From Gammaproteobacteria bacterium (GTDB taxonomy: Bacteria; Pseudomonadota; Gammaproteobacteria; JAJPIJ01), in assembly GCA_022072255.1 (NCBI GenBank), contig JAJVHZ010000037.1, positions 18,162-82,161 of the forward strand: a stretch of DNA of 64,000 nucleotides, read 5' to 3'. Made by a program: the position numbers and the translations under genes. The notes beneath the pieces are model-generated. The model saw only the letters and a program-made list of their open reading frames with translations, was not told the origin of the DNA and did no database searches. Each line of letters opens with the position of its first letter. The first letter of the stretch is position 1. Below, in pieces: positions 34,877 to 54,465 of this stretch.

Positions 34877-37898
<3,022 letters not shown>

Positions 37899-38174
37899 CT
37901 ACGGCTTCGCCGTGGCCGAGACCGTGAGCTTGTCCTTGTTGGCGGCCAGCGTCTTCTCGCCGATCCCGTCCACCATTGCCAGTTCCTCCACCGACTGGAA
38001 CGGGCCATGCTGCTCGCGGTAGGCGACGATCGCCTGGGCCTTGGCCTCGCCCACGCCGTTCAGTTCCTTGGCAAGGGTGGCCGCATCCGCGGTGTTTATA
38101 TCGACGGGTTCGCCGAAGGCCAGGGGACTGACGGCGAGAAGTGCGGCGAGAGAGAGGTTTTTGAAAGTAGCCAT
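37899..38174 (-). CDS. ComEA-like helix-hairpin-helix protein
   Basis: A 91-residue exported protein with a signal peptide (residues 1-21, ending AFG) followed by the helix-hairpin-helix domain VDINTADAATLAKELNGVGEAKAQAIVAYRE and a second hairpin VDGIGEKTLAANKDKL. Such small ComEA-like proteins bind DNA and may help DNA uptake. The short gammaproteobacterial form lacks the membrane anchor of Bacillus ComEA. It stands alone with its own terminator. Confidence 0.9.
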   Translation of the reverse strand: MATFKNLSLAALLAVSPLAFGEPVDINTADAATLAKELNGVGEAKAQAIVAYREQHGPFQSVEELAMVDGIGEKTLAANKDKLTVSATAKP

Positions 38175-38376
38175 TTGCGAATCTCCTTTTCATTACAGTT
38201 GCACATCGTCCATTGCGTCACGCGGGCAGCGGCCGTCTGCCTGCGTAGCTCCTGCTGATGCCGCGGCGCGATCCTCGCGCCGCTCATCGCGCGGTCAATC
38301 TATCACCGCGGCCGCGCCCGCAAACCGGCGCGTTCGAATTCTGTGAATCAGTTCGAAGGGGGCAGCTCGCAAACGA

Positions 38377-38404
38377 GCCGGGAGGGCGATCTCGCCCTCC
38401 CGGC
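38377..38404 (-). terminator. Hairpin after the phosphate-porin gene
   Basis: A stem of about 13 base pairs built from GCCGGGAGGGCGA and its complement with a two-base loop, 14 bases beyond the stop at 38418. No real T-run follows on the minus strand (GTTTGC only), so it may act with Rho or only stabilise the mRNA end. Confidence 0.45.
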
Positions 38405-38417
38405 CGCAACGGCCCGG

Positions 38418-39812
38418 TTACCAGTAGACCATGGCGCGCAGATTCACGGAGCTCGGTTCGTCGCCGTCGAACCCGCTGCCGGGGCGGTCGAGGTCGAGCA
38501 CGGTCACGTAATCGGCCATGAAGCGGATGGTGTTGGTCGGATACCAGTTCAGGGCCACTCGGAAATCCTCCTCCCGGCCGCCGGACACCCCCCCGTCCTG
38601 GAACTCGTTCAGATCCATCACGTCGTAACGCGCCGCCATCTGCCAGGCGCCGATGCCGCCCTTGCCGACGATGCCCTTGGGCTTCACACCGCTGAAATGG
38701 CCCTCGTCCAGCTCGAACTTCATCGACTCCCCGGTGAGGAAGTAGCTGGCCTCCACGTAATAGCCGTCGAGCGTCACGTCATCGCCGCCGAAGGCGGCAC
38801 CGTTCGGGGAGACGTTCCAGTTGGTGTACTCGGCCTGAAAGTGGGCTGGTCCCCAGACCGCCACGGCCTCGGCGTTGAAGGCCAGGATACCTTCCACGTC
38901 GCCGGTGCCGAAGTCGGCGTCGGTGAAGTAGCTGTCGGAGGCGCGGATCACGCCCGGGCGCTGGCGCACGCGCACCTCGGTGTCGTTCGGGTCCTTGTAC
39001 CAGACCGCGCCGCCGAGATGGACGAAGTGGTTCTTGTTCCTGATGTGCGGATTCATCGTCACGCGCGCGGCGATGCTGAGCTGCTCGAAGGTGTCCGGAT
39101 CCTCGCCTTCCTCGGCGCCGTAGATGCCCGTGTGGAACGTCCAGAGCTGGCCGTCCTTGCCGCCGTTGATGAAGAACGACGACCCCAGCTGTCGGTTCGG
39201 CTGCAGCACGACATCGGCCATGAGCGGCCGCTCCAGGAACAGCATGTACTTGGAGCTGGACATCGTGGCCAGACCGAACGGCACCTGCTGCTGGCCGACC
39301 TTCACGTTCCACTCGCCGCCGGAGTACTCGTCCTCGTAGCCGACGTAGCCGTCCTTGAGCGCGGCGTCGCCGCCGGCGAAATCGTACTCGAGCTTCCAGA
39401 TCCAGTGCTGCCAGAGCCTGCCCCGCATGCCGAGGCGCGCGCGGCGGATGTCGCCCTCGGTGTCGATCTGGCTCAGATCGGAATCCGGGATGTAATAGTC
39501 GGCCATCAGCAGGCCGATGAACCGCCATTCGAAATCGCCGTCGGCGGAGGTGACCTTGATCTCCTCCTTGGTGTCGATCTTGGGCGTCTCCTTCTGCATC
39601 CGCTCGATCTCATCCCTGGCATGGCTGACGTGCTCGTCGTCGGCCTTGGCGGCGTTGACCAGCGACTCGTAGGTCGCCTCATCGAGCGTGCCCTTGTCCC
39701 TGAGGACCTTCAGCAGCCCCATCATGGCATCGTTGGCCGCCGGCGCGGGCGCCGGCGCGACCGCGCCGGCCGCCAGCACCAGCGGCAATAGCTTCCCGTG
39801 GGTCCGAAACAT
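38418..39812 (-). CDS. OprP/OprO-like phosphate-selective porin
   Basis: A 464-residue outer-membrane protein. It has a signal peptide (residues 1-26), a short helical segment (TLDEATYESLVNAAKADDEH) and then a beta-barrel domain. Marks of the family are IRRARLGMRGRLWQHWIWKLEYDFAGG, VGQQQVPFGLATMSSS and the aromatic C-terminus AMVYW, which ends in Trp as barrel proteins often do. It is divergent from phoB and close to ppk, so a role in phosphate or polyphosphate uptake under Pho control is likely. Confidence 0.88.
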   Translation of the reverse strand: MFRTHGKLLPLVLAAGAVAPAPAPAANDAMMGLLKVLRDKGTLDEATYESLVNAAKADDEHVSHARDEIERMQKETPKIDTKEEIKVTSADGDFEWRFIGLLMADYYIPDSDLSQIDTEGDIRRARLGMRGRLWQHWIWKLEYDFAGGDAALKDGYVGYEDEYSGGEWNVKVGQQQVPFGLATMSSSKYMLFLERPLMADVVLQPNRQLGSSFFINGGKDGQLWTFHTGIYGAEEGEDPDTFEQLSIAARVTMNPHIRNKNHFVHLGGAVWYKDPNDTEVRVRQRPGVIRASDSYFTDADFGTGDVEGILAFNAEAVAVWGPAHFQAEYTNWNVSPNGAAFGGDDVTLDGYYVEASYFLTGESMKFELDEGHFSGVKPKGIVGKGGIGAWQMAARYDVMDLNEFQDGGVSGGREEDFRVALNWYPTNTIRFMADYVTVLDLDRPGSGFDGDEPSSVNLRAMVYW

Positions 39813-39987
39813 ATCTTCCTCCTCTTGTGAACGGCTATCGGCAAACCCGCGCGACCGGATCCCCTCGTGGACGCGTCTGGAATTGAGGGTTCGGGGCGGA
39901 TGCTAGCGGGCGTTTGTGACGAAAGTATGTCATTCCGCGACGTGACCGATCGGCGACTGTTCAAGGTGCCGGAGCCTTCCCGCAGTA

Positions 39988-40016
39988 ATGTCACAAACCT
40001 GTAAGATTTTCGACAT
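39988..40016 (+). promoter_or_regulatory. Candidate Pho box upstream of phoB
   Basis: Three 7-base units at an 11-base period, ATGTCAC, CTGTAAG and TCGACAT, compare with the Pho-box unit CTGTCAT (5, 5 and 4 of 7 matches). The site ends 30 bases before the phoB ATG, in the gap shared with the divergent porin gene, and could serve autoregulation. Degenerate sites of this quality occur by chance at some rate. Confidence 0.45.
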
Positions 40017-40046
40017 CTGACGGGGGGTGGAAGGCGCGCATGACCC

Positions 40047-40733
40047 ATGAGCGGGCAAATACCCATCGTCGAGGACGAGCCGGCCATCCGGCAGATGCTG
40101 CAGTTCACCCTGTCGGCGGAGGGTTTCGACTGCCAAGAGGCGGGAAGCGCCGACGAGGCCGCGGGCGCGCTGGCCGCGCAGGTCCCTGATCTGATCCTGC
40201 TCGACTGGATGCTGCCGGGCGTCAGCGGGCCCGATTACGCGCGGCGCCTGAAGCGCGACCCGCGCACCCAGGGCGTCCCGATCATCATGCTCACGGCCAA
40301 GGATACGGAGGCCGACAAGGTCAGGGGCCTGGACAGCGGCGCCGAGGATTACGTCACCAAGCCCTTCTCGACCCAGGAGCTGCTGGCGCGGGTGCGCGGG
40401 GTGCTGAGGCGTTCGACGCCGGCCGGCGGCGGGCAGACCATGGAGGCCGCCGGCTTGAGGCTGGACCCCGCGACCCACCGCGTGACGGCGCGCGGCGTCA
40501 GTCTGAACCTGAGCCCGACCGAATTCCGCCTGCTGCACTTTTTCATCAGTCACCCGGAGCGGGTTTTCACCCGCAACCAGCTGCTCGAACAGGTCTGGGG
40601 CGATCGCGTCTACATCGAGGAGCGAACGGTGGACGTGCACACTCGCAGGCTGCGCAAGGTGCTCGCCGAGCACGGATTCGATCACCTGATTCAGACCGTA
40701 CGCAGCGTCGGCTACCGCTTTTCCGCCCAATAG
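40047..40733 (+). CDS. phoB: Phosphate regulon response regulator PhoB
   Basis: A 228-residue OmpR-family regulator. The receiver domain has acidic residues in IVEDEPAI, phospho-acceptor Asp53 in LILLDWMLPG, the switch Thr in MLTAKD and the conserved Lys in YVTKPF. The winged-helix domain has LSPTEFRLLHFF, RVYIEERTVDVHTRRLRKVL and TVRSVGYRFS, typical of PhoB. It appears fully functional, but the following phoR lacks its kinase. Confidence 0.94.
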   Translation: MSGQIPIVEDEPAIRQMLQFTLSAEGFDCQEAGSADEAAGALAAQVPDLILLDWMLPGVSGPDYARRLKRDPRTQGVPIIMLTAKDTEADKVRGLDSGAEDYVTKPFSTQELLARVRGVLRRSTPAGGGQTMEAAGLRLDPATHRVTARGVSLNLSPTEFRLLHFFISHPERVFTRNQLLEQVWGDRVYIEERTVDVHTRRLRKVLAEHGFDHLIQTVRSVGYRFSAQ

Positions 40734-40806
40734 CCGCGGACCTGCCTCATTGGACAGTGCGGGCCGCTGTTCCTGCACTTGACGGAGACCGGGGTTCAAC
40801 GGGTTC

Positions 40807-41400
40807 ATGGCGCCAATGCAGGCCGATCTCTGGCGGGCCAGCGCACTCCTCACTCTGGCGTTGCTGATTGGACTGGCAAGCGGCAAGCTGCTTGCCTGCC
40901 TGATCGTCGCGACGACGGCCTATGGGGCGTGGTCGCACTGGCGACTGCGGCAACTGCTCGGCTGGCTGCGCGATCGCAACCAGCATGCGGCCCCCGATGT
41001 GCCCGGGGTGTTCGAGGCGATATGCTCCGGGATCGATTTCCTGCGCAACCGTCATCGCCGCCGCAAGCGCAAGCTCGCGGCGCCGCTGAAGCAGTTCGAG
41101 GACGCCACCTCGGCGCTGCCCGACGCGACCGTCATACTCGGTCCGGGGGGTGAAATCCGCTGGGCCAACACCGCTGCCCGGAACCAGCTGGGGATACGCT
41201 GGCCGGATGACCGCCGGCAGCGCCTGACCAATCTCCTGCGCCATCCCGACGTGGCAACGCTGCTGGAGTCGCAGGCCGCGGCGGAGACCACTGTCGATAT
41301 CCCCTCTCCGATCGATCCCGGCGTGCAACTGAGCCTGAGGGTGGTGCCGTACGCGCACCGCGCGGCGCTCGATCGGGGTCATCTCTCGGCAACGATGTAG
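40807..41400 (+). pseudogene. phoR: phoR, truncated before the histidine-kinase domain
   Basis: A 197-residue product matching only the N-terminal part of PhoR: two hydrophobic segments (about residues 10-45), the basic linker RNRHRRRKRKLAAPLKQFEDA, then a PAS domain (ATSALPDATVILGPGGEI, then RLTNLLRHPDVATLLES and LPSP-like PSPIDPGVQLSLRVVPY). A normal PhoR then continues through HisKA and the ATPase domain (about 430 residues in all). Here the frame stops at 41400 and its last codons overlap the 3' end of the opposite methyltransferase gene. A deletion or rearrangement has probably removed the kinase half. It could still make a membrane-PAS protein, but it cannot phosphorylate PhoB. Confidence 0.8.
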
Positions 41401-42203
41401 GCGATCCAGCCGGCCTCCGGTTCGCCCGCTTCCGTGGGCTCGAACTCCCCGGTGCCCTTCTGCTTCTTCTCGTCCCAGCCTTCCCAGTACATGGTCACCT
41501 TGCGAAAGCCCGATTCCAGCAGCAGCTCGTGCAGCTCCGGCAGCGTCCACAGCCGCCAGTCGTAGGTGAATGCCTTTGGCAGCCGCGAGCCGTCGGGAAA
41601 GGAGAAGTCGATATGGCAGAGAAAGTCGCCGCTAATCGGATTGTATGCGGCCTGGTGCCAGATGTAGGTGAAGCCGCGATGCTTCGTGCGCTCGCGCAGC
41701 ACCCGGAAGGCGTCGTAGCCGCCCATCGCATCTAGGAAGAACAGCCCGTCCGCAGCCAGCCCGGCGCGCACGTTGCGGAAGTAGGACCTCATCAGGTCGC
41801 GCGACTTGAACAGCCAGTAGCTGAAGTTCATCGCCATCACCACGTCCACGGGACGCGTGCGCACCTTCAGCACGTCCTCGTTGAGGAGCGTGATGCGCGA
41901 GTTCGCCGAGGAGGACAGCGTCGAAAGGTTGTGTTCCCGGCCCCAGGCGAGCACCGCCGGATCGAGATCGACGCCAAAGGCGATATTGCCGGGACGGCGG
42001 CGGACCCACTCGCAGGCCACCAGCGCGGTGCCGCAGAAATCCTCCCTCAGCGTGGCGGGCCTGCGCCGCCGCAGCCTGCCATAAACCTCATCGACGAAAT
42101 CGACCTCGGACTCCGCGCACTGCACGGAGCGCTGGTAGAGGATCTGGCGATCGGCCTTCTGCGCCATGGTGCGGGCGCGACGGGGCACGGCTTTCTGGGC
42201 CAT
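41379..42203 (-). CDS. SAM-dependent methyltransferase, class I
   Basis: A 274-residue protein. The SAM-binding region is in ATLREDFCGTALVACEW and AFGVDLDPAVLAWGREH, with motif IV near VDVVMAMNFSYW. The substrate is unknown. I chose the ATG at 42203 because GGAG lies seven bases upstream; the earlier ATG at 42236 has no ribosome-binding site. A later in-frame ATG before ADRQILYQRSV is also possible. Its 3' end overlaps the cut end of phoR. It is divergent from ppk. Confidence 0.85.
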   Translation of the reverse strand: MAQKAVPRRARTMAQKADRQILYQRSVQCAESEVDFVDEVYGRLRRRRPATLREDFCGTALVACEWVRRRPGNIAFGVDLDPAVLAWGREHNLSTLSSSANSRITLLNEDVLKVRTRPVDVVMAMNFSYWLFKSRDLMRSYFRNVRAGLAADGLFFLDAMGGYDAFRVLRERTKHRGFTYIWHQAAYNPISGDFLCHIDFSFPDGSRLPKAFTYDWRLWTLPELHELLLESGFRKVTMYWEGWDEKKQKGTGEFEPTEAGEPEAGWIAYIVAER

Positions 42204-42306
42204 GTGTTGCTCCGGTGATTGGGGAACCAGTTGCATCGGGAGGATGTCGTAGCGTTGTCATGATGCGGGCGCGCGCCGCATGATAACATGCTGAATCAAT
42301 AACGAA

Positions 42307-44418
42307 ATGCTCGCGCGAACCGCCCGTGCGGAGCGCGCGCCGGCAACGATGGATCCGACCGACCTGCAACGCCCCGAGCTGTACATCAACCGGGAGCTCT
42401 CCCAGCTGGAGTTCAACCGGCGCGTACTCGATCTCGCCAGGGACGAGAACGTGCCGCTGCTCGAGCGCCTCAAGTTCCTTTGCATCGTCAGCACCAATCT
42501 CGACGAGTTCTTCGAGATCCGCGTCTCCGGCCTGAAGCAGCAGGCCGAGTACGGCTCGCTGCAGACCGGCCCTGACCGGTTGCGCGCACCGGATCAGCTG
42601 CGGCGCATCAGCGAGATCGCCCACGCGCTCGTCGTCGAGCAGTATCGCGTGCTCAACGAGGAGCTGATCCCCCGGCTGGCCGAGCACGGCGTGCGCTTTC
42701 CGCGGCGCGCGGACTGGGACGGCAAGCTCGCCGACTGGGTGAAACGCTACTTCAACCGCGAGCTGCTGCCGGTGCTCAGCCCGATGGGGCTCGACCCGGC
42801 GCACCCGTTTCCGAAGATCCTCAACAAGAGCCTGAACTTCATGGTGTCGCTGGAGGGCAAGGACGCCTTCGGCCGCAACAGCGGCATCGCCATCGTCCAG
42901 GCGCCGCGCTCGCTGCCGCGCGTCATCAACGTGCCGGAGAGCTACGCGCAGGGTCCGCACGATTTCGTGTTTCTCTCCTCCGTCATCCATGCGCACGTCG
43001 GCGACCTGTTCCCGGGCATGAAGGCGACGGGCTGCTATCAGTTTCGCGTCACCCGCAACAGCGACCTGTTCGTCGACGACGAAGACGTCGAGGACCTGTT
43101 GCGCGCGCTGAAGGGCGAGCTGCCGTCGCGCCGCTTCGGCGATGCGGTGCGCATCGAGATCGCCGACAACTGCCCGCCGGAGATGATCAGTTTCCTGCTC
43201 GCGCAGTTCGAACTGAGCGAGGACGACATCTACCAGGTGAACGGCCCGGTCAACCTTTCCCGCCTGATGGCCATACACGACCTGGTTGCCCGCCCCGATC
43301 TGAAATACACGCCATTCACGCCGAGCCAGCCCAGGCGGCTGACGGGCGACAACGACATCTTCGAGACCATCCGCAAGGACGATCTGCTGCTGCTGCACCC
43401 TTTCCAGTCCTTCACGCCGGTGGTGGACTTTCTGCGGCAGGCCGCCCTGGACCCCAAGGTGCTCGCCATCAAGCAGACACTGTATCGCACGGGATCGGAT
43501 TCCGTGATCGCGCAGGCACTGATCGATGCCGCCAAGAAGGGCAAGGAGGTCACCGTCGTCATCGAGCTGCGGGCGCGCTTCGACGAGGAGGCCAACATCG
43601 AACTGGCCGACCGGCTGCAGGAGGCCGGCGCGCACGTCGTCTACGGTGTCGTCGGCTACAAGACGCACGCGAAGATGGCGCTGGTGGTGCGCCGCGAGGA
43701 GCGCCAGCTGAAGCGCTACGTGCATCTCGGCACCGGCAACTATCACGCGCGCACTGCGCGCCTTTACACCGATCTCAGCCTGCTGACCTCCGACGTCGCC
43801 ATCTGCGAGGACGTGCACAAGGTCTTCCAGCAGCTCACCGCACTCGGCCGGCCCGGCAAGCTGCGCAAGCTCCTGCAGTCGCCATTCACGCTGCACAAGG
43901 GCATGCTCGCTCTCATCCGGCAGGAGGCAGGCGCGGCGCGCGCGGGCAGGCCGGCGCGGATCATCGCGAAGATGAACCAGCTCACCGACCCGACCGTGGT
44001 CGGCGCGCTGTACGAAGCGTCGCAGGCGGGAGTGAGGATCGATCTCGTCGTACGCGGCGTATGCGTCCTGCGGCCGGGGATCAAGGGCGTCTCGGAGAAC
44101 ATTCACGTGCGTTCCATCGTCGGGCGGTTGCTCGAGCATTCGCGCGTTTTCTATTTTTTCAACGGCGGCGAACCACTGGTCTTTCTCTCCAGCGCCGACT
44201 GGATGGAGCGCAATCTCTACAAGCGCGTGGAGGTCTGCTTCCCGGTGGAGGACAAACGCCTGCTCGCCCGCGTGGTGGAGGAGTCGCTGCACAACTACCT
44301 CTCCGACAACACGCAGGCGTGGGTGCTCAACTCCGACGGCAGCTACAGGCGGCTGACGCCGGGCGCCCACAGGCAACGCTCGGCGCAGCAGGCGCTGCTC
44401 GATGAGTACTGCGGGTAA
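42307..44418 (+). CDS. ppk: Polyphosphate kinase 1
   Basis: A 703-residue enzyme that polymerises the ATP gamma-phosphate into polyphosphate. The N-terminal domain opens YINRELSQLEFNRRVLDLA and STNLDEFFEIRVSGLKQQ. The two phospholipase-D-like catalytic histidines are His454 in GYKTHAKMAL (the autophosphorylation site) and His611 in LEHSRVFYFFNGG. The start may instead be the ATG at 42349, which gives MDPTDLQRPELY. It follows the phosphate genes; ppx is not adjacent. Confidence 0.97.
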   Translation: MLARTARAERAPATMDPTDLQRPELYINRELSQLEFNRRVLDLARDENVPLLERLKFLCIVSTNLDEFFEIRVSGLKQQAEYGSLQTGPDRLRAPDQLRRISEIAHALVVEQYRVLNEELIPRLAEHGVRFPRRADWDGKLADWVKRYFNRELLPVLSPMGLDPAHPFPKILNKSLNFMVSLEGKDAFGRNSGIAIVQAPRSLPRVINVPESYAQGPHDFVFLSSVIHAHVGDLFPGMKATGCYQFRVTRNSDLFVDDEDVEDLLRALKGELPSRRFGDAVRIEIADNCPPEMISFLLAQFELSEDDIYQVNGPVNLSRLMAIHDLVARPDLKYTPFTPSQPRRLTGDNDIFETIRKDDLLLLHPFQSFTPVVDFLRQAALDPKVLAIKQTLYRTGSDSVIAQALIDAAKKGKEVTVVIELRARFDEEANIELADRLQEAGAHVVYGVVGYKTHAKMALVVRREERQLKRYVHLGTGNYHARTARLYTDLSLLTSDVAICEDVHKVFQQLTALGRPGKLRKLLQSPFTLHKGMLALIRQEAGAARAGRPARIIAKMNQLTDPTVVGALYEASQAGVRIDLVVRGVCVLRPGIKGVSENIHVRSIVGRLLEHSRVFYFFNGGEPLVFLSSADWMERNLYKRVEVCFPVEDKRLLARVVEESLHNYLSDNTQAWVLNSDGSYRRLTPGAHRQRSAQQALLDEYCG

Positions 44419-44424
44419 AGTCCG

Positions 44425-45222
44425 CTAGGGGCCGCCCGCCGTGGCCGGCGAGGCGGTCACGAGACGTTCGATCGCCAGAAGCAGTCCGGTATCGCTCGCC
44501 TCTTCGGCGATCTCCACCCTGCCGCTGTATCCCAGGTTCAGGGCGCGATCCGCGATGCGCGCGCTCAGCGCCGCGACGGGCACGGCGAGCAGCTCACGCA
44601 ACCCCTGCGCGTCGAGAAGGTGGCCGAGATGCTCGGCGGCTTCCGCGCTGGTCAGCACCAGGACGTCCGGGCGCTCCACGTCGGCCGCCATCAGTGTCGC
44701 GCCGACGGCGACCGGTTTCGGGACACGCCGGTACACCTCCACGTACTCGACCTCGGCGCCGCGGTCGTGGAGCGTGTGCGCCAGCAGGTCGCGGCCGCCG
44801 TGGCCGCGCACGATGACGACGACGCGACCGGCGACCGCCGTGGCGGAGAGGGCCGCGGTGGTCAGCCAGCCCTCGCTGCTGGCGTCGATGTCCGGCATCG
44901 CCATGGGCATCTGCCCGGCCGTCCGCAGCGCGGCCACGGTGGACGGGCCCACACCGATGATCGCGCCGCCCGCCGGCAGCAGAGGACGAACGACCTTCAG
45001 GCCCAGGCGCACCGCGTTCACGCTCACGAAAATGACGGCGCAGATGCGCTCCCGCTCGACGTTCGGCAGCACGGGATTGGCTACGGGCTCGATGGTCATG
45101 AGCGGCAGCAGCACGGCAGTCCCGCCGCGCACCTCGATAAGCTCGCGCAGCCGGGCGGATTGCCCCGCCGGCCGGGTGACCACCACACTGATACCGCGCA
45201 ACGTCGGCGTCCGATTCGGCAT
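44425..45222 (-). CDS. hemD: Uroporphyrinogen-III synthase
   Basis: A 265-residue protein from the ATG at 45222. HemD sequences are weakly conserved, but the pattern is right: ISVVVTRPAGQSARLRELI, VIFVSVNAVRLGL, GAIIGVGPSTVAALR and VEVYRRVPKP, with VLVLTSAEAAEHL near the end. It closes the tetrapyrrole ring of uroporphyrinogen III. It is not next to hemC. It ends seven bases from ppk, convergent with it, and is divergent from arfB. Confidence 0.88.
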   Translation of the reverse strand: MPNRTPTLRGISVVVTRPAGQSARLRELIEVRGGTAVLLPLMTIEPVANPVLPNVERERICAVIFVSVNAVRLGLKVVRPLLPAGGAIIGVGPSTVAALRTAGQMPMAMPDIDASSEGWLTTAALSATAVAGRVVVIVRGHGGRDLLAHTLHDRGAEVEYVEVYRRVPKPVAVGATLMAADVERPDVLVLTSAEAAEHLGHLLDAQGLRELLAVPVAALSARIADRALNLGYSGRVEIAEEASDTGLLLAIERLVTASPATAGGP

Positions 45223-45271
45223 GGATTCGAAATTAGCTGACGCGCCGCCGGCGTTCAAGCGAAAATGCTGC

Positions 45272-45694
45272 ATGCTGATAGTCAACTCCGCGCTCGCCAT
45301 CCCCGATGCCGAGATCGACCTCACCTTCGTGCGCGCCGCCGGACCGGGCGGACAGAACGTCAACAAGGTCGCGACCGCCGCGCAGTTGCGCTTCGACATC
45401 GATGCCTCGCGCGTGCTGCAGCCGGCCGTGCGCGAGCGCCTGCGCAAGCTCGCCGGCCAGCGCGTGAGCAGCGGCGGCGTGCTGACAATCAAGGCCGGCC
45501 GTCATCGCACCCAGGAACGCAATCGCGAAGACGCGCTGCGGAGGCTGGCCGAGCTGCTGCGGGCCGCGCTGGTCGCGCCCAGGCCGCGCATCAAGACCAG
45601 GGTGCCCAGGAGCGCGGCGCGGCGGCGACTGGAGGGCAAGCAGCATCGCTCGGCGGTGAAGTCACTGCGCCGCCGTCCGGCCGGCGAGGACTGA
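45272..45694 (+). CDS. arfB: Alternative ribosome-rescue factor ArfB
   Basis: A 140-residue peptidyl-tRNA hydrolase that frees stalled ribosomes. The catalytic GGQ lies in AAGPGGQNVNKVATAAQLRFD. The basic C-terminal tail (residues 100-138, rich in Arg and Lys), which enters the empty mRNA channel, is present. It is shorter than RF1/RF2 and lacks codon-recognition domains. Its 3' end overlaps that of the PHP nuclease gene by 33 bases on the opposite strand. Confidence 0.93.
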   Translation: MLIVNSALAIPDAEIDLTFVRAAGPGGQNVNKVATAAQLRFDIDASRVLQPAVRERLRKLAGQRVSSGGVLTIKAGRHRTQERNREDALRRLAELLRAALVAPRPRIKTRVPRSAARRRLEGKQHRSAVKSLRRRPAGED

Positions 45695-46543
45695 GGCGGC
45701 CGGAAGCGACTCCCATACCGGCTCGATCTCCGGCGGCAGGGCGCCGAAGGCGCCGAGCTCCGGGGCATACCGGCCGCAGGCGTGAAAATCCGAGCCCACG
45801 GACCCCATCAGGCCGCAATGCCGCGCGATCGCGGCCGCCGTCGCCGTCTCCCGCTGCGGCTGATTGGCGAGCACCACTTCGATGGCACTGCCGCCGCACT
45901 CCCTGAAGCGCCCCGCGATGCGCCGCAGCCAGGTTGCCGTGAATTTGTACCGCATCGGATGCGCCAGCACGGCCACGCCGCCGGCCTCGCGTATGCAGGC
46001 GACCGTGTCCTCGATTTCCGGCCAGACGGTGGCCACGTAGGCGGGCCGGCCGCGCCCGAGCAGACGACTGAAGATCTCCGCGTTGTCGGCACAGATGCCG
46101 CGACCAATCAGCCAGCGCGCGAAATGCGCGCGACCGGGAACCGCGGCGCCCGCCTCGGCGCAGGCGCCTTCGTACGCCTGCGCGATCCCCAGGCGCGCCA
46201 GCCTCCGACCGATTCGGCGCGCGCGCTCGGCACGCAATTCCCGCAATCGCCCGATCGCCGCGCGCAGGCCGGCGGCATCCGGATCGATCCCGAGGCCTAC
46301 CACGTGCAGCGGTTTGTCGCCGGCCGCGGCCGACATCTCGATCGCCGGCACCAGGCCGACGCCGTGGCGGCGGGCCGCCTGCCGAGCCTCGGCGATGCCG
46401 GCCGTGGTGTCGTGATCCGTGAGCGCCAGCACCTCGATGCCGCGCTCCGCGGCGCGCGCCACCAATTCCGATGGACTCAGCATGCCGTCGGAGGCGCTGG
46501 AGTGCGCGTGCAGGTCGATCCGTGATCTCTCAGTTGATCGCAT
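45662..46543 (-). CDS. rnm: PHP-domain nuclease of the RNase AM (YciV) type
   Basis: A 293-residue PHP phosphoesterase. Metal ligands are seen in IDLHAHSSASDG, LALTDHDTTAG, EMSAA, HVVGLGID, VAVLAHPMRYK and GSDFHACGRYAPELG. E. coli YciV (RNase AM) is a 5'-3' exonuclease that trims 5S and other rRNA ends; members have also been called 3',5'-nucleoside bisphosphate phosphatases. The symbol rests on length and motif agreement. It overlaps the DUF3301 gene by 14 bases. Confidence 0.87.
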   Translation of the reverse strand: MRSTERSRIDLHAHSSASDGMLSPSELVARAAERGIEVLALTDHDTTAGIAEARQAARRHGVGLVPAIEMSAAAGDKPLHVVGLGIDPDAAGLRAAIGRLRELRAERARRIGRRLARLGIAQAYEGACAEAGAAVPGRAHFARWLIGRGICADNAEIFSRLLGRGRPAYVATVWPEIEDTVACIREAGGVAVLAHPMRYKFTATWLRRIAGRFRECGGSAIEVVLANQPQRETATAAAIARHCGLMGSVGSDFHACGRYAPELGAFGALPPEIEPVWESLPAASVLAGRTAAQ

Positions 46544-46877
46544 GGACGGTACCGCCGGTCATGATGAAGGGACCGCCTGGATGCTCCAGGCGCACGAACT
46601 CCACGGTCCGGCCCGTCATCGCCGCCACCCCGCGGTGGCGATCGGTGCCATTGGTGCTGAATTCGAAGCCGTAGCGCCGGAGCAGCACCAGCCGCCCGCG
46701 AGCGTCACGGCCCAGGCTGAGCGATGCCAGCGCCACCGTCTGATCGAGAAACTGCACGCTGGCATCCTGGCAGGCACGACCGCAGTATTGCAGGGCGACC
46801 TCGCGCGCGCGCGTGCTGTCGGCCCAGAGCCAGACCAGCCCGACAAGCACGGCAATGAAGATCAGGGTTTCCGGCAC
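46530..46877 (-). CDS. DUF3301 membrane-anchored protein
   Basis: A 115-residue protein with one N-terminal membrane helix (residues 3-18) followed by the DUF3301 pattern ADSTRAREVALQYCGRACQDASVQFLDQTVAL and RRYGFEFSTNGTDRHRG. Function is unknown. It is often near PHP nuclease genes in gammaproteobacteria and overlaps one here. Confidence 0.85.
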   Translation of the reverse strand: MPETLIFIAVLVGLVWLWADSTRAREVALQYCGRACQDASVQFLDQTVALASLSLGRDARGRLVLLRRYGFEFSTNGTDRHRGVAAMTGRTVEFVRLEHPGGPFIMTGGTVHAIN

Positions 46878-46902
46878 CTCGTCGTCTCCTCGACCGCGCC
46901 CG

Positions 46903-47097
46903 TCAGTCCGACTGCGTCGCCTCGAATCCCGCCAGCAGCCCGTCCTCGGCGCTGAGCGCCAGCCGCATCGGCCGGCAGCAGACCTCGCAGTCCTCGACGT
47001 AGTCCTGCGTGCCGTCCACCGAGAGGTCCAACAGCACCGATACGGTCTCGCCGCAGTACGGACAGGTGAAATGGTGCTCGGAGATCTCGGGTCCCAC
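46903..47097 (-). CDS. CPXCG-motif cysteine-rich protein
   Basis: A 64-residue protein with a zinc-ribbon-like arrangement: FTCPYCGETVSVLLD, then VEDCEVCCRPM. The paired cysteines (C-x2-C twice) probably bind zinc. The family is conserved but of unknown function. It is co-directional with the DUF3301 gene. Confidence 0.85.
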   Translation of the reverse strand: MGPEISEHHFTCPYCGETVSVLLDLSVDGTQDYVEDCEVCCRPMRLALSAEDGLLAGFEATQSD

Positions 47098-47137
47098 GCG
47101 GAAATCGCCGATCCTGGGCCCGTCTGCGCCTGGCGGG

Positions 47138-47620
47138 TCAGTCGCGAAAATTGACGTACTGCAGCGGCAGCTCCAGTTTCGCCGCGCGCAGCATCGCGAT
47201 TACCGCCTGCAGGTCGTCGCGCTTCTTCCCGGTGACGCGCACCTGCTTCTCCTGGACCTGCGCCTGCACCTTCAGCCCGCTGTCCTTGATGAGCCTGACG
47301 ACCGAGCGCGCGAAATCGCTGTCCAGCCCTTCGCGAACCAGCACCGCCTGACGGGCCTCGCTGCCGCTCACGACCGTCTCCTCGACCTTCAGCGCGGCAA
47401 GATCGATGCCGCGCCTGGCGAGCTTGGCCTTGAGGATGTCGAGCAGTTGCTGGACCTGAAACTCCGAGGGCGCCACCAGCGTCAGCGCGAGCTCCTTCTG
47501 CTCGACGCGGGCGTTGGATCCCTTGAAGTCGAACCGGGTGGCGAGCTCCCGGGCGGTCTGATCCAGGGCGTTGCCGAGTTCGTGACGATTGATCTCCGAC
47601 ACCACGTCAAATGACGGCAT
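47138..47620 (-). CDS. YajQ-family nucleotide-binding protein
   Basis: A 160-residue cytoplasmic protein. The family opening MPSFDVVSEINRHELGNALDQ, the core ELATRFDFKGSNARVE and the end LPLQYVNFRD are present. Relatives in Xanthomonas and Pseudomonas bind cyclic di-GMP and act as transcription co-factors; whether this one does cannot be judged by eye. GGAGGA seven bases upstream supports the ATG. Confidence 0.93.
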   Translation of the reverse strand: MPSFDVVSEINRHELGNALDQTARELATRFDFKGSNARVEQKELALTLVAPSEFQVQQLLDILKAKLARRGIDLAALKVEETVVSGSEARQAVLVREGLDSDFARSVVRLIKDSGLKVQAQVQEKQVRVTGKKRDDLQAVIAMLRAAKLELPLQYVNFRD

Positions 47621-53974: not shown

Positions 53975-54175
53975 GCAGCACGGCACGCCCGTCCATGGTC
54001 TGTCCGCCGCCCGCTGCCCGCGGCCGCTTTGGTTAATCACAACCAGCTGGCTGTTTTATATTAATCAAATCCGTCCCGCCGGGCCTGGGCCGCGGTACGT
54101 CTGCCGGGAGCAGAGAATATTCTAAGATATTGAAAATTATAACCTATGTCCTTGGCCTCGACCGCCCGGGTCGGC

Positions 54176-54190
54176 TGGCACGGGAACTGC
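54176..54190 (+). promoter_or_regulatory. Candidate sigma-54 (-24/-12) promoter of pqqA
   Basis: TGGCACGGGAACTGC matches the consensus TGGCAC-N5-TTGC at nine of ten specified bases. The invariant GG (54177-54178) and GC (54189-54190) are exactly ten bases apart. It predicts a transcript starting near 54202 and a leader of about 48 bases before pqqA. An AT-rich tract at about 54115-54145 could be bent by IHF, as sigma-54 promoters often need. The activator binding site is not identified. rpoN is intact in this window. Confidence 0.6.
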
Positions 54191-54249
54191 CCGGGTAAAG
54201 GTACGTCAGTTTAATTGCGGTTCCAACTCACTCACTGGAGGGTATCAAA

Positions 54250-54324
54250 ATGGCCTGGGAAACTCCTGCTTTCGCCGATGTGCGCTTTGGCTTCGAAGTC
54301 ACGATGTACATCAGCAACCGTTAA
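54250..54324 (+). CDS. pqqA: Coenzyme PQQ precursor peptide PqqA, stand-alone copy
   Basis: A 24-residue peptide ending GFEVTMYISNR. The Glu16 and Tyr20 pair in E-x3-Y is what PqqE joins and PqqF, PqqB and PqqC later convert to pyrroloquinoline quinone. Both residues and the surrounding motif agree with Klebsiella and Pseudomonas PqqA, and the length is typical. GGAGGG at 54237-54242, seven bases before the ATG, is a strong ribosome-binding site. A -24/-12 promoter lies upstream and an intrinsic terminator starts 23 bases after the stop, so it is a single-gene transcript. No pqqB, C, D, E or F is in the window; these must be elsewhere or this is an extra copy. PQQ serves periplasmic alcohol, methanol or glucose dehydrogenases. 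Confidence 0.93.
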   Translation: MAWETPAFADVRFGFEVTMYISNR

Positions 54325-54347
54325 TCGGGTAACTGGGTTGTATCGGC

Positions 54348-54377
54348 AAAGGGGCCTCATGGCCCCTTTGTTTTTTT
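54348..54377 (+). terminator. Intrinsic terminator of pqqA
   Basis: A perfect nine-base-pair stem (AAAGGGGCC with GGCCCCTTT) around a TCAT loop, followed by GTTTTTTT. It is strong, plus-strand-directed and 23 bases after the pqqA stop. It ends the transcript before the convergent algC gene. Confidence 0.92.
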
Positions 54378-54465
54378 CCTGTCTCCACGCCCGCGGCTCG
54401 CGAGCCGCCCGCCCGTAAACCACCGGGGGGCGGGGCCACTTGACCGGCCGGCAGCCGCCGCCGGC

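Follow-up and report, generated by a model that had tools for sequence, protein, structure and literature searches.

Here, we describe the genome of an uncultured bacterium which retains the response regulator gene phoB and appears to have lost the whole phosphate-sensing transporter complex, beyond the kinase alone. With a probability of roughly 80%, a lineage-specific deletion of about 7.7 kb fused phoR at approximately codon 182 to the gap beside a methyltransferase gene, such that Pst, PhoU and the kinase half of PhoR were lost at once; the remaining piece of phoR would then be a non-signalling relic, phosphate would enter via Pit, and PhoB would be uncoupled from external phosphate. The gap in an otherwise colinear locus, the absence of the lost genes from the assembly and the retention of Pit are observed.

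The locus and the phoR remnant

The window, i.e., the whole stretch of 64,000 nucleotides that was analysed (G000:C10:18162-82161), belongs to a metagenome-type assembly of 4.27 Mb in 128 contigs, which is 95.5% complete with 1.4% contamination. All evidence for the deletion comes from this one assembly, the single genome of its species in the comparison. Comparisons were made mainly with G001, a genome of the same genus, whose corresponding locus is L046. The relevant features are:

38418..39812, minus strand: porin of the phosphate-selective type (Porin_O_P, PF07396, 8.3e-50), divergent from phoB, kept
39988..40006, plus strand: Pho-box-like site upstream of phoB, 14 of 19 consensus positions, kept
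40047..40733, plus strand: phoB, open frame of 228 aa, above the TIGR02154 cut-off, kinase partner lost
40807..41400, plus strand: phoR stub, open frame of 197 aa with ATG start; has membrane domain and PAS region, with the last 14 codons or so stemming from past the junction
41347..41358, no strand: deletion junction, best split 41354/41355 (split scoring against two G001 flanks, blastn); about 7.7 kb sits here in G001
41379..42236, minus strand: methyltransferase, 285 aa, intact, 91% identical to G001, right-hand neighbour of the junction; Pfam matches below cut-off
42307..44418, plus strand: ppk1, polyphosphate kinase (TIGR03705, 979 bits), kept

The genes thus follow each other in the order porin (minus), phoB (plus), phoR stub (plus), methyltransferase (minus) and ppk1 (plus). 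About 0.6 Pho-box-like sites at 14 of 19 positions are expected per shuffled window, and such a site is weak evidence by itself; G001 also carries one at 14 of 19 upstream of phoB.

Profile searches place the PhoR membrane domain (PF11808, 5.3e-19, above cut-off) on residues 5-88 of the stub and a weak, sub-threshold PAS match on residues 100-158 (PF00989, 21.4 bits against a cut-off of 22.6), and no Pfam match to HisKA or HATPase occurs in this frame at E<=0.1. The NCBIfam model of PhoR, NF008235, covers the stub over model positions 20-188 of 431 only. The product is a remnant of PhoR and no PhoR kinase. This bears out the original prediction, made from the letters of the window, that the piece keeps membrane segments and PAS domain, the latter with a weak match, and ends at residue 197 before HisKA; its reading of the stop codon (41398-41400) as lying 22 bases inside the 3' end of the opposite methyltransferase gene, which ends at 41379, also agrees with the coordinates. 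In the 56 genomes searched, PhoR with the same N-terminus was found in 37 others: in 36 of them phoR is open over at least 427 aa, and in the remaining one (G036, 254 aa) the frame runs off the contig end. Hence, PhoR does not normally occur in so short a form.

Relative rate analysis gave 8 changes in the stub versus 10 in G001, i.e., no acceleration. By dN/dS the stub ranks 40 of 51 ORFs, in a rough ranking with a third-position filter in which some ORFs may be antisense shadows. As far as substitutions tell, such an unaccelerated stub would fit a recent deletion.

Junction and extent of the probable deletion

Window and G001 are colinear over about 56 kb, from 34 to 55811, except for three gaps. 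Two of these are minor, with a few hundred bases each (near 35184-35457 and 54053-54455). The third lies at phoR, between a left flank (window 36097-41348, L046 19001-13788, 86.6% match by blastn) and a right flank (window 41373-47427, L046 6055-1, 90.9%, also by blastn). The gene order in G001 is phoB, full phoR, phoU, pstB, pstA, pstC, pstS, methyltransferase and ppk1, where phoR encodes 456 aa with HisKA and HATPase_c, and phoU to pstS are located on the opposite strand. Counted in G001 coordinates, the window lacks about 7.7 kb, from approximately codon 182 of phoR to the gap next to the methyltransferase stop; this figure is the length of the gap in G001 and may differ from the length deleted in the window lineage.

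The junction was placed by scoring every possible split against both G001 flanks. A deletion junction had been predicted near 41370-41400; the deletion is retained here, its position is not, as homology to phoR already stops at 41347-41358. The sequence beyond is ordinary methyltransferase-gene flank, and the stop codon is merely encountered after the junction. On its right side, the junction falls about 24 bases past the methyltransferase stop, at the edge of the Pho-box-like site of pstS, which in G001 (L046 6072-6090, 14 of 19 positions) is found 23 bases past that stop. A repeat-mediated deletion was rejected, since the G001 breakpoint regions share no exact direct repeat of more than 7 bases. 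An RNA element at the junction was also rejected, as Rfam gives no match in 38000-45000.

The loss of the kinase half by deletion had been proposed before and this half is indeed gone, but the event is larger: pstS, pstC, pstA, pstB, phoU and the Pho-box-like site of pstS are missing from the same gap. Full phoR, phoU and pst genes are present in this neighbourhood in G001, G002 and G014, together with the methyltransferase. G003 has full phoR, phoU and pst as well, and the methyltransferase has no match there. Since these four relatives hold the full set, we regard the absence in the window genome as derived.

Search for the lost genes in the remainder of the genome

The missing 7.76 kb of G001 DNA give no long match in the window genome. 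The 16 short matches found fall on two short stretches only, namely a dispersed intergenic repeat and a part of pstB that is matched by other ABC ATPases. On the protein level, PhoU has no match in this assembly and two in each of four relatives, and the best match of PstB reaches 33% identity versus 65-100% in the relatives. PstC attains 58 bits at best, below the model cut-off; pstA was looked for by DNA match and via its similarity to the PstC model only. For the PstS family, one strong match is TupA-like and a second is partial at 47 bits. The former, at G000:C1:115969, is a PBP_like_2 protein; we discarded it as a candidate second PstS, as it is TupA-like (187 bits, model cut-off 400) and has a counterpart in G001.

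Outside the locus, the best match of the PhoR kinase half shows 32% identity, and no cognate kinase was found in the assembly, in line with the expectation that PhoB has no cognate kinase here. A complete phoR next to pstSCAB elsewhere, which would have spoken against the original prediction, was looked for in the assembly and not found; a complete phoR or pst copy was rejected by DNA, family and protein searches alike. Thus, all members of the PstSCAB-PhoU complex, pstS, pstC, pstA, pstB and phoU, are not found in an assembly of 95.5% completeness. Pit is retained with an open frame of 337 aa (PF01384, at G000:C36), preceded by an open frame for a PhoU_div/DUF47 protein of 232 aa. Non-cognate kinases are numerous, as judged from 21 HisKA matches in the genome.

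State of PhoB

PhoB passes the PhoB equivalog model TIGR02154 with 324.1 bits (cut-off 296.2) and, scored side by side, is slightly lower than its G001 counterpart (323.5 versus 333.9 bits). The translation, aligned with 1b00, contains the phospho-acceptor D53 as well as T83 and K105. The comparison set was derived from 56 loci with a PhoB match, 45 with a PhoR N-terminal match and 39 with both, after prior exclusion of three loci of the genome itself; 37 pass an adjacency and length filter, and 31 remain when identical sequences are removed. At columns at least 90% conserved among these 31, the window PhoB has five private residues, and G001 none: P6 (L in 31 of 31), E100 (D in 31), G118 (A in 31), E181 (D in 30) and T199 (I in 30, V in 1). 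Residue 6 lies in strand beta1 and residue 199 in the recognition helix, a placement that fits the 1b00 and 1gxp alignments. An equal or higher count occurs in 5 of the 31 others (L034, L027, L038, L031, L016), whose counts are inflated because they are distant from the window PhoB (at most 54% identity).

The relative rate is 16 versus 9 in G001, which is not significant (chi2 1.96), and 11 versus 11 with outgroup G014; dN/dS is 0.334, rank 36 of 51 in the rough ranking described above. PhoB had been called intact. This holds for the open reading frame and the family score; the unusual residues at conserved sites qualify it. They are suggestive only, and PhoB may be starting to decay under perhaps relaxed selection.

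Alternative explanations

We have to ask whether the deletion is an effect of assembly or population, in which the assembler kept a short path from mixed cells or produced a chimeric junction. The metagenome-type assembly with its 128 contigs and 95.5% completeness leaves room for this, and neither phoR stub nor phoB evolves significantly faster, which would agree with an intact locus in many of the cells. However, a random chimera would not link flanks that are neighbours in G001, in the same order and orientation. A collapse by the assembler would find no repeat to act on, and the window contains no N characters; moreover, no other contig carries the missing DNA. Even as a population variant, the deletion would be real in some cells. 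All in all, we consider an artefact of this kind unlikely.

Two further readings concern the proteins that are left. The stub may have been retained as a working membrane protein, e.g., with its PAS domain binding another partner. Its open frame and its rate, no faster than that of G001, speak for this, but the open frame is equally explained by a recent deletion, the known partners PhoU and Pst are gone, and the last 14 codons or so originate from past the junction, which makes a working stub highly improbable. PhoB, in turn, freed from PhoR, PhoU and Pst, might be under repurposing as a kinase-independent or cross-driven regulator of the phosphate-selective porin and other genes, with private substitutions in receiver and DNA-binding domain that are adaptive rather than signs of decay; to this we assign only a small likelihood. 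A lineage-specific deletion that left a relic remains our preferred explanation: it looks real and is ordinary gene loss in kind.

Proposed working

A single deletion would have taken the PhoR kinase half, phoU, pstB, pstA, pstC, pstS and the Pho-box-like site of pstS. The 197-aa stub would be a relic unable to signal, because its catalytic domain is absent and its PAS domain has lost the partner PhoU. Pit with its DUF47 partner would be the route of phosphate entry. PhoB would be blind to external phosphate, with at most a basal level of phosphorylation by other kinases or by acetyl phosphate; rather than being strictly silent, it probably no longer responds to phosphate. In E. coli phoR deletion strains, 3-5% of PhoB is phosphorylated and activation persists (PMC5433096).

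The joint loss of PhoU, Pst and the kinase would spare the cell both the growth defect of PhoU loss and the constitutive Pho response of Pst loss. In E. coli, the N-PAS piece of PhoR binds PhoU and loss of phoU leads to a severe growth phenotype (PMC4423584), and Pst mutations render the Pho regulon constitutive (PMC3511308).

Relation to known systems

With the E. coli type PhoBR-PstSCAB-PhoU system, the locus shares phoB, the membrane domain and probable PAS region of PhoR, a Pho-box-like site and the phosphate-type porin, and G001 has the full set here; the window genome differs in having neither kinase half, PhoU nor any of the four Pst genes. E. coli phoR deletion strains (PMC5433096) likewise have a PhoB devoid of its kinase, but here the loss is natural, PhoU and Pst are lost too, and a PhoR piece ending after PAS is kept. 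Among the literature searched, the nearest published pattern appears to be that of the flexible phosphate islands of marine HIMB59, whose gene content tracks phosphate (PMC10734472). Common to both is that phosphate gene content at one place varies between close relatives, here one pair, window genome and G001. The islands described in that source all keep the pst operon, the simplest ones having no PhoR-PhoB; here we see the opposite, pst lost and phoB kept.

Within titles and abstract openings, our literature search found no report of a naturally occurring deletion that takes phoR, phoU and pst and leaves phoB. Prochlorococcus MIT9313 is said to have a broken phoR, for which no report was found within the same scope.

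In a sample of the class, PhoU is present in 214 of 276 genomes and absent from 62. Twenty of these 62 were listed, window genome included, such that 19 others were considered. Four of the 19 have a PhoB of at least 288 bits, one of them over the cut-off, and three more range at 205-217 bits. All four keep an adjacent PhoR-like kinase, 40-52% identical to G001 PhoR, so a PhoB that has no kinase looks uncommon in this small sample. The four gammaproteobacterial loci (L188, L189, L190 and L191, from G032, G026, G030 and G027) show no pst or phoU match within the 9-10 kb analysed.

The locus offers a base-level example of a two-component system coming apart, where transporter, co-sensor and kinase vanish together and the response regulator and its likely target porin remain. 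It predicts a Pit-only cell unable to sense phosphate in the usual way, and cautions that phoB alone is insufficient to call a Pho system present.

Further observations in the relatives

In G001, G002 and G003 (L046, L047, L049), phoR and the pst-phoU operon point towards each other, whereas the operon follows phoB-phoR in the same direction in G014 (L048); therefore, it was inverted or moved between lineages. In G001, PstC (about 760-806 aa) and PstA (554 aa) are long forms (L046 7140-11221), with large regions ahead of the permease domain. They are also long in G014, whereas the open frames are short in G002 and G003 (366 and 297 aa).

A GC-rich repeat with a palindromic core, about 60-110 bases in length, separates phoU and phoR in G001, where the two genes converge (L046 12905-12990). 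At least seven dispersed copies occur in the window genome (C1:59789, C15:62668, C38:16002, C7:78750, C22:57603, C40:19103, C28:13330), and its appearance is that of a REP-type element belonging to the genus.
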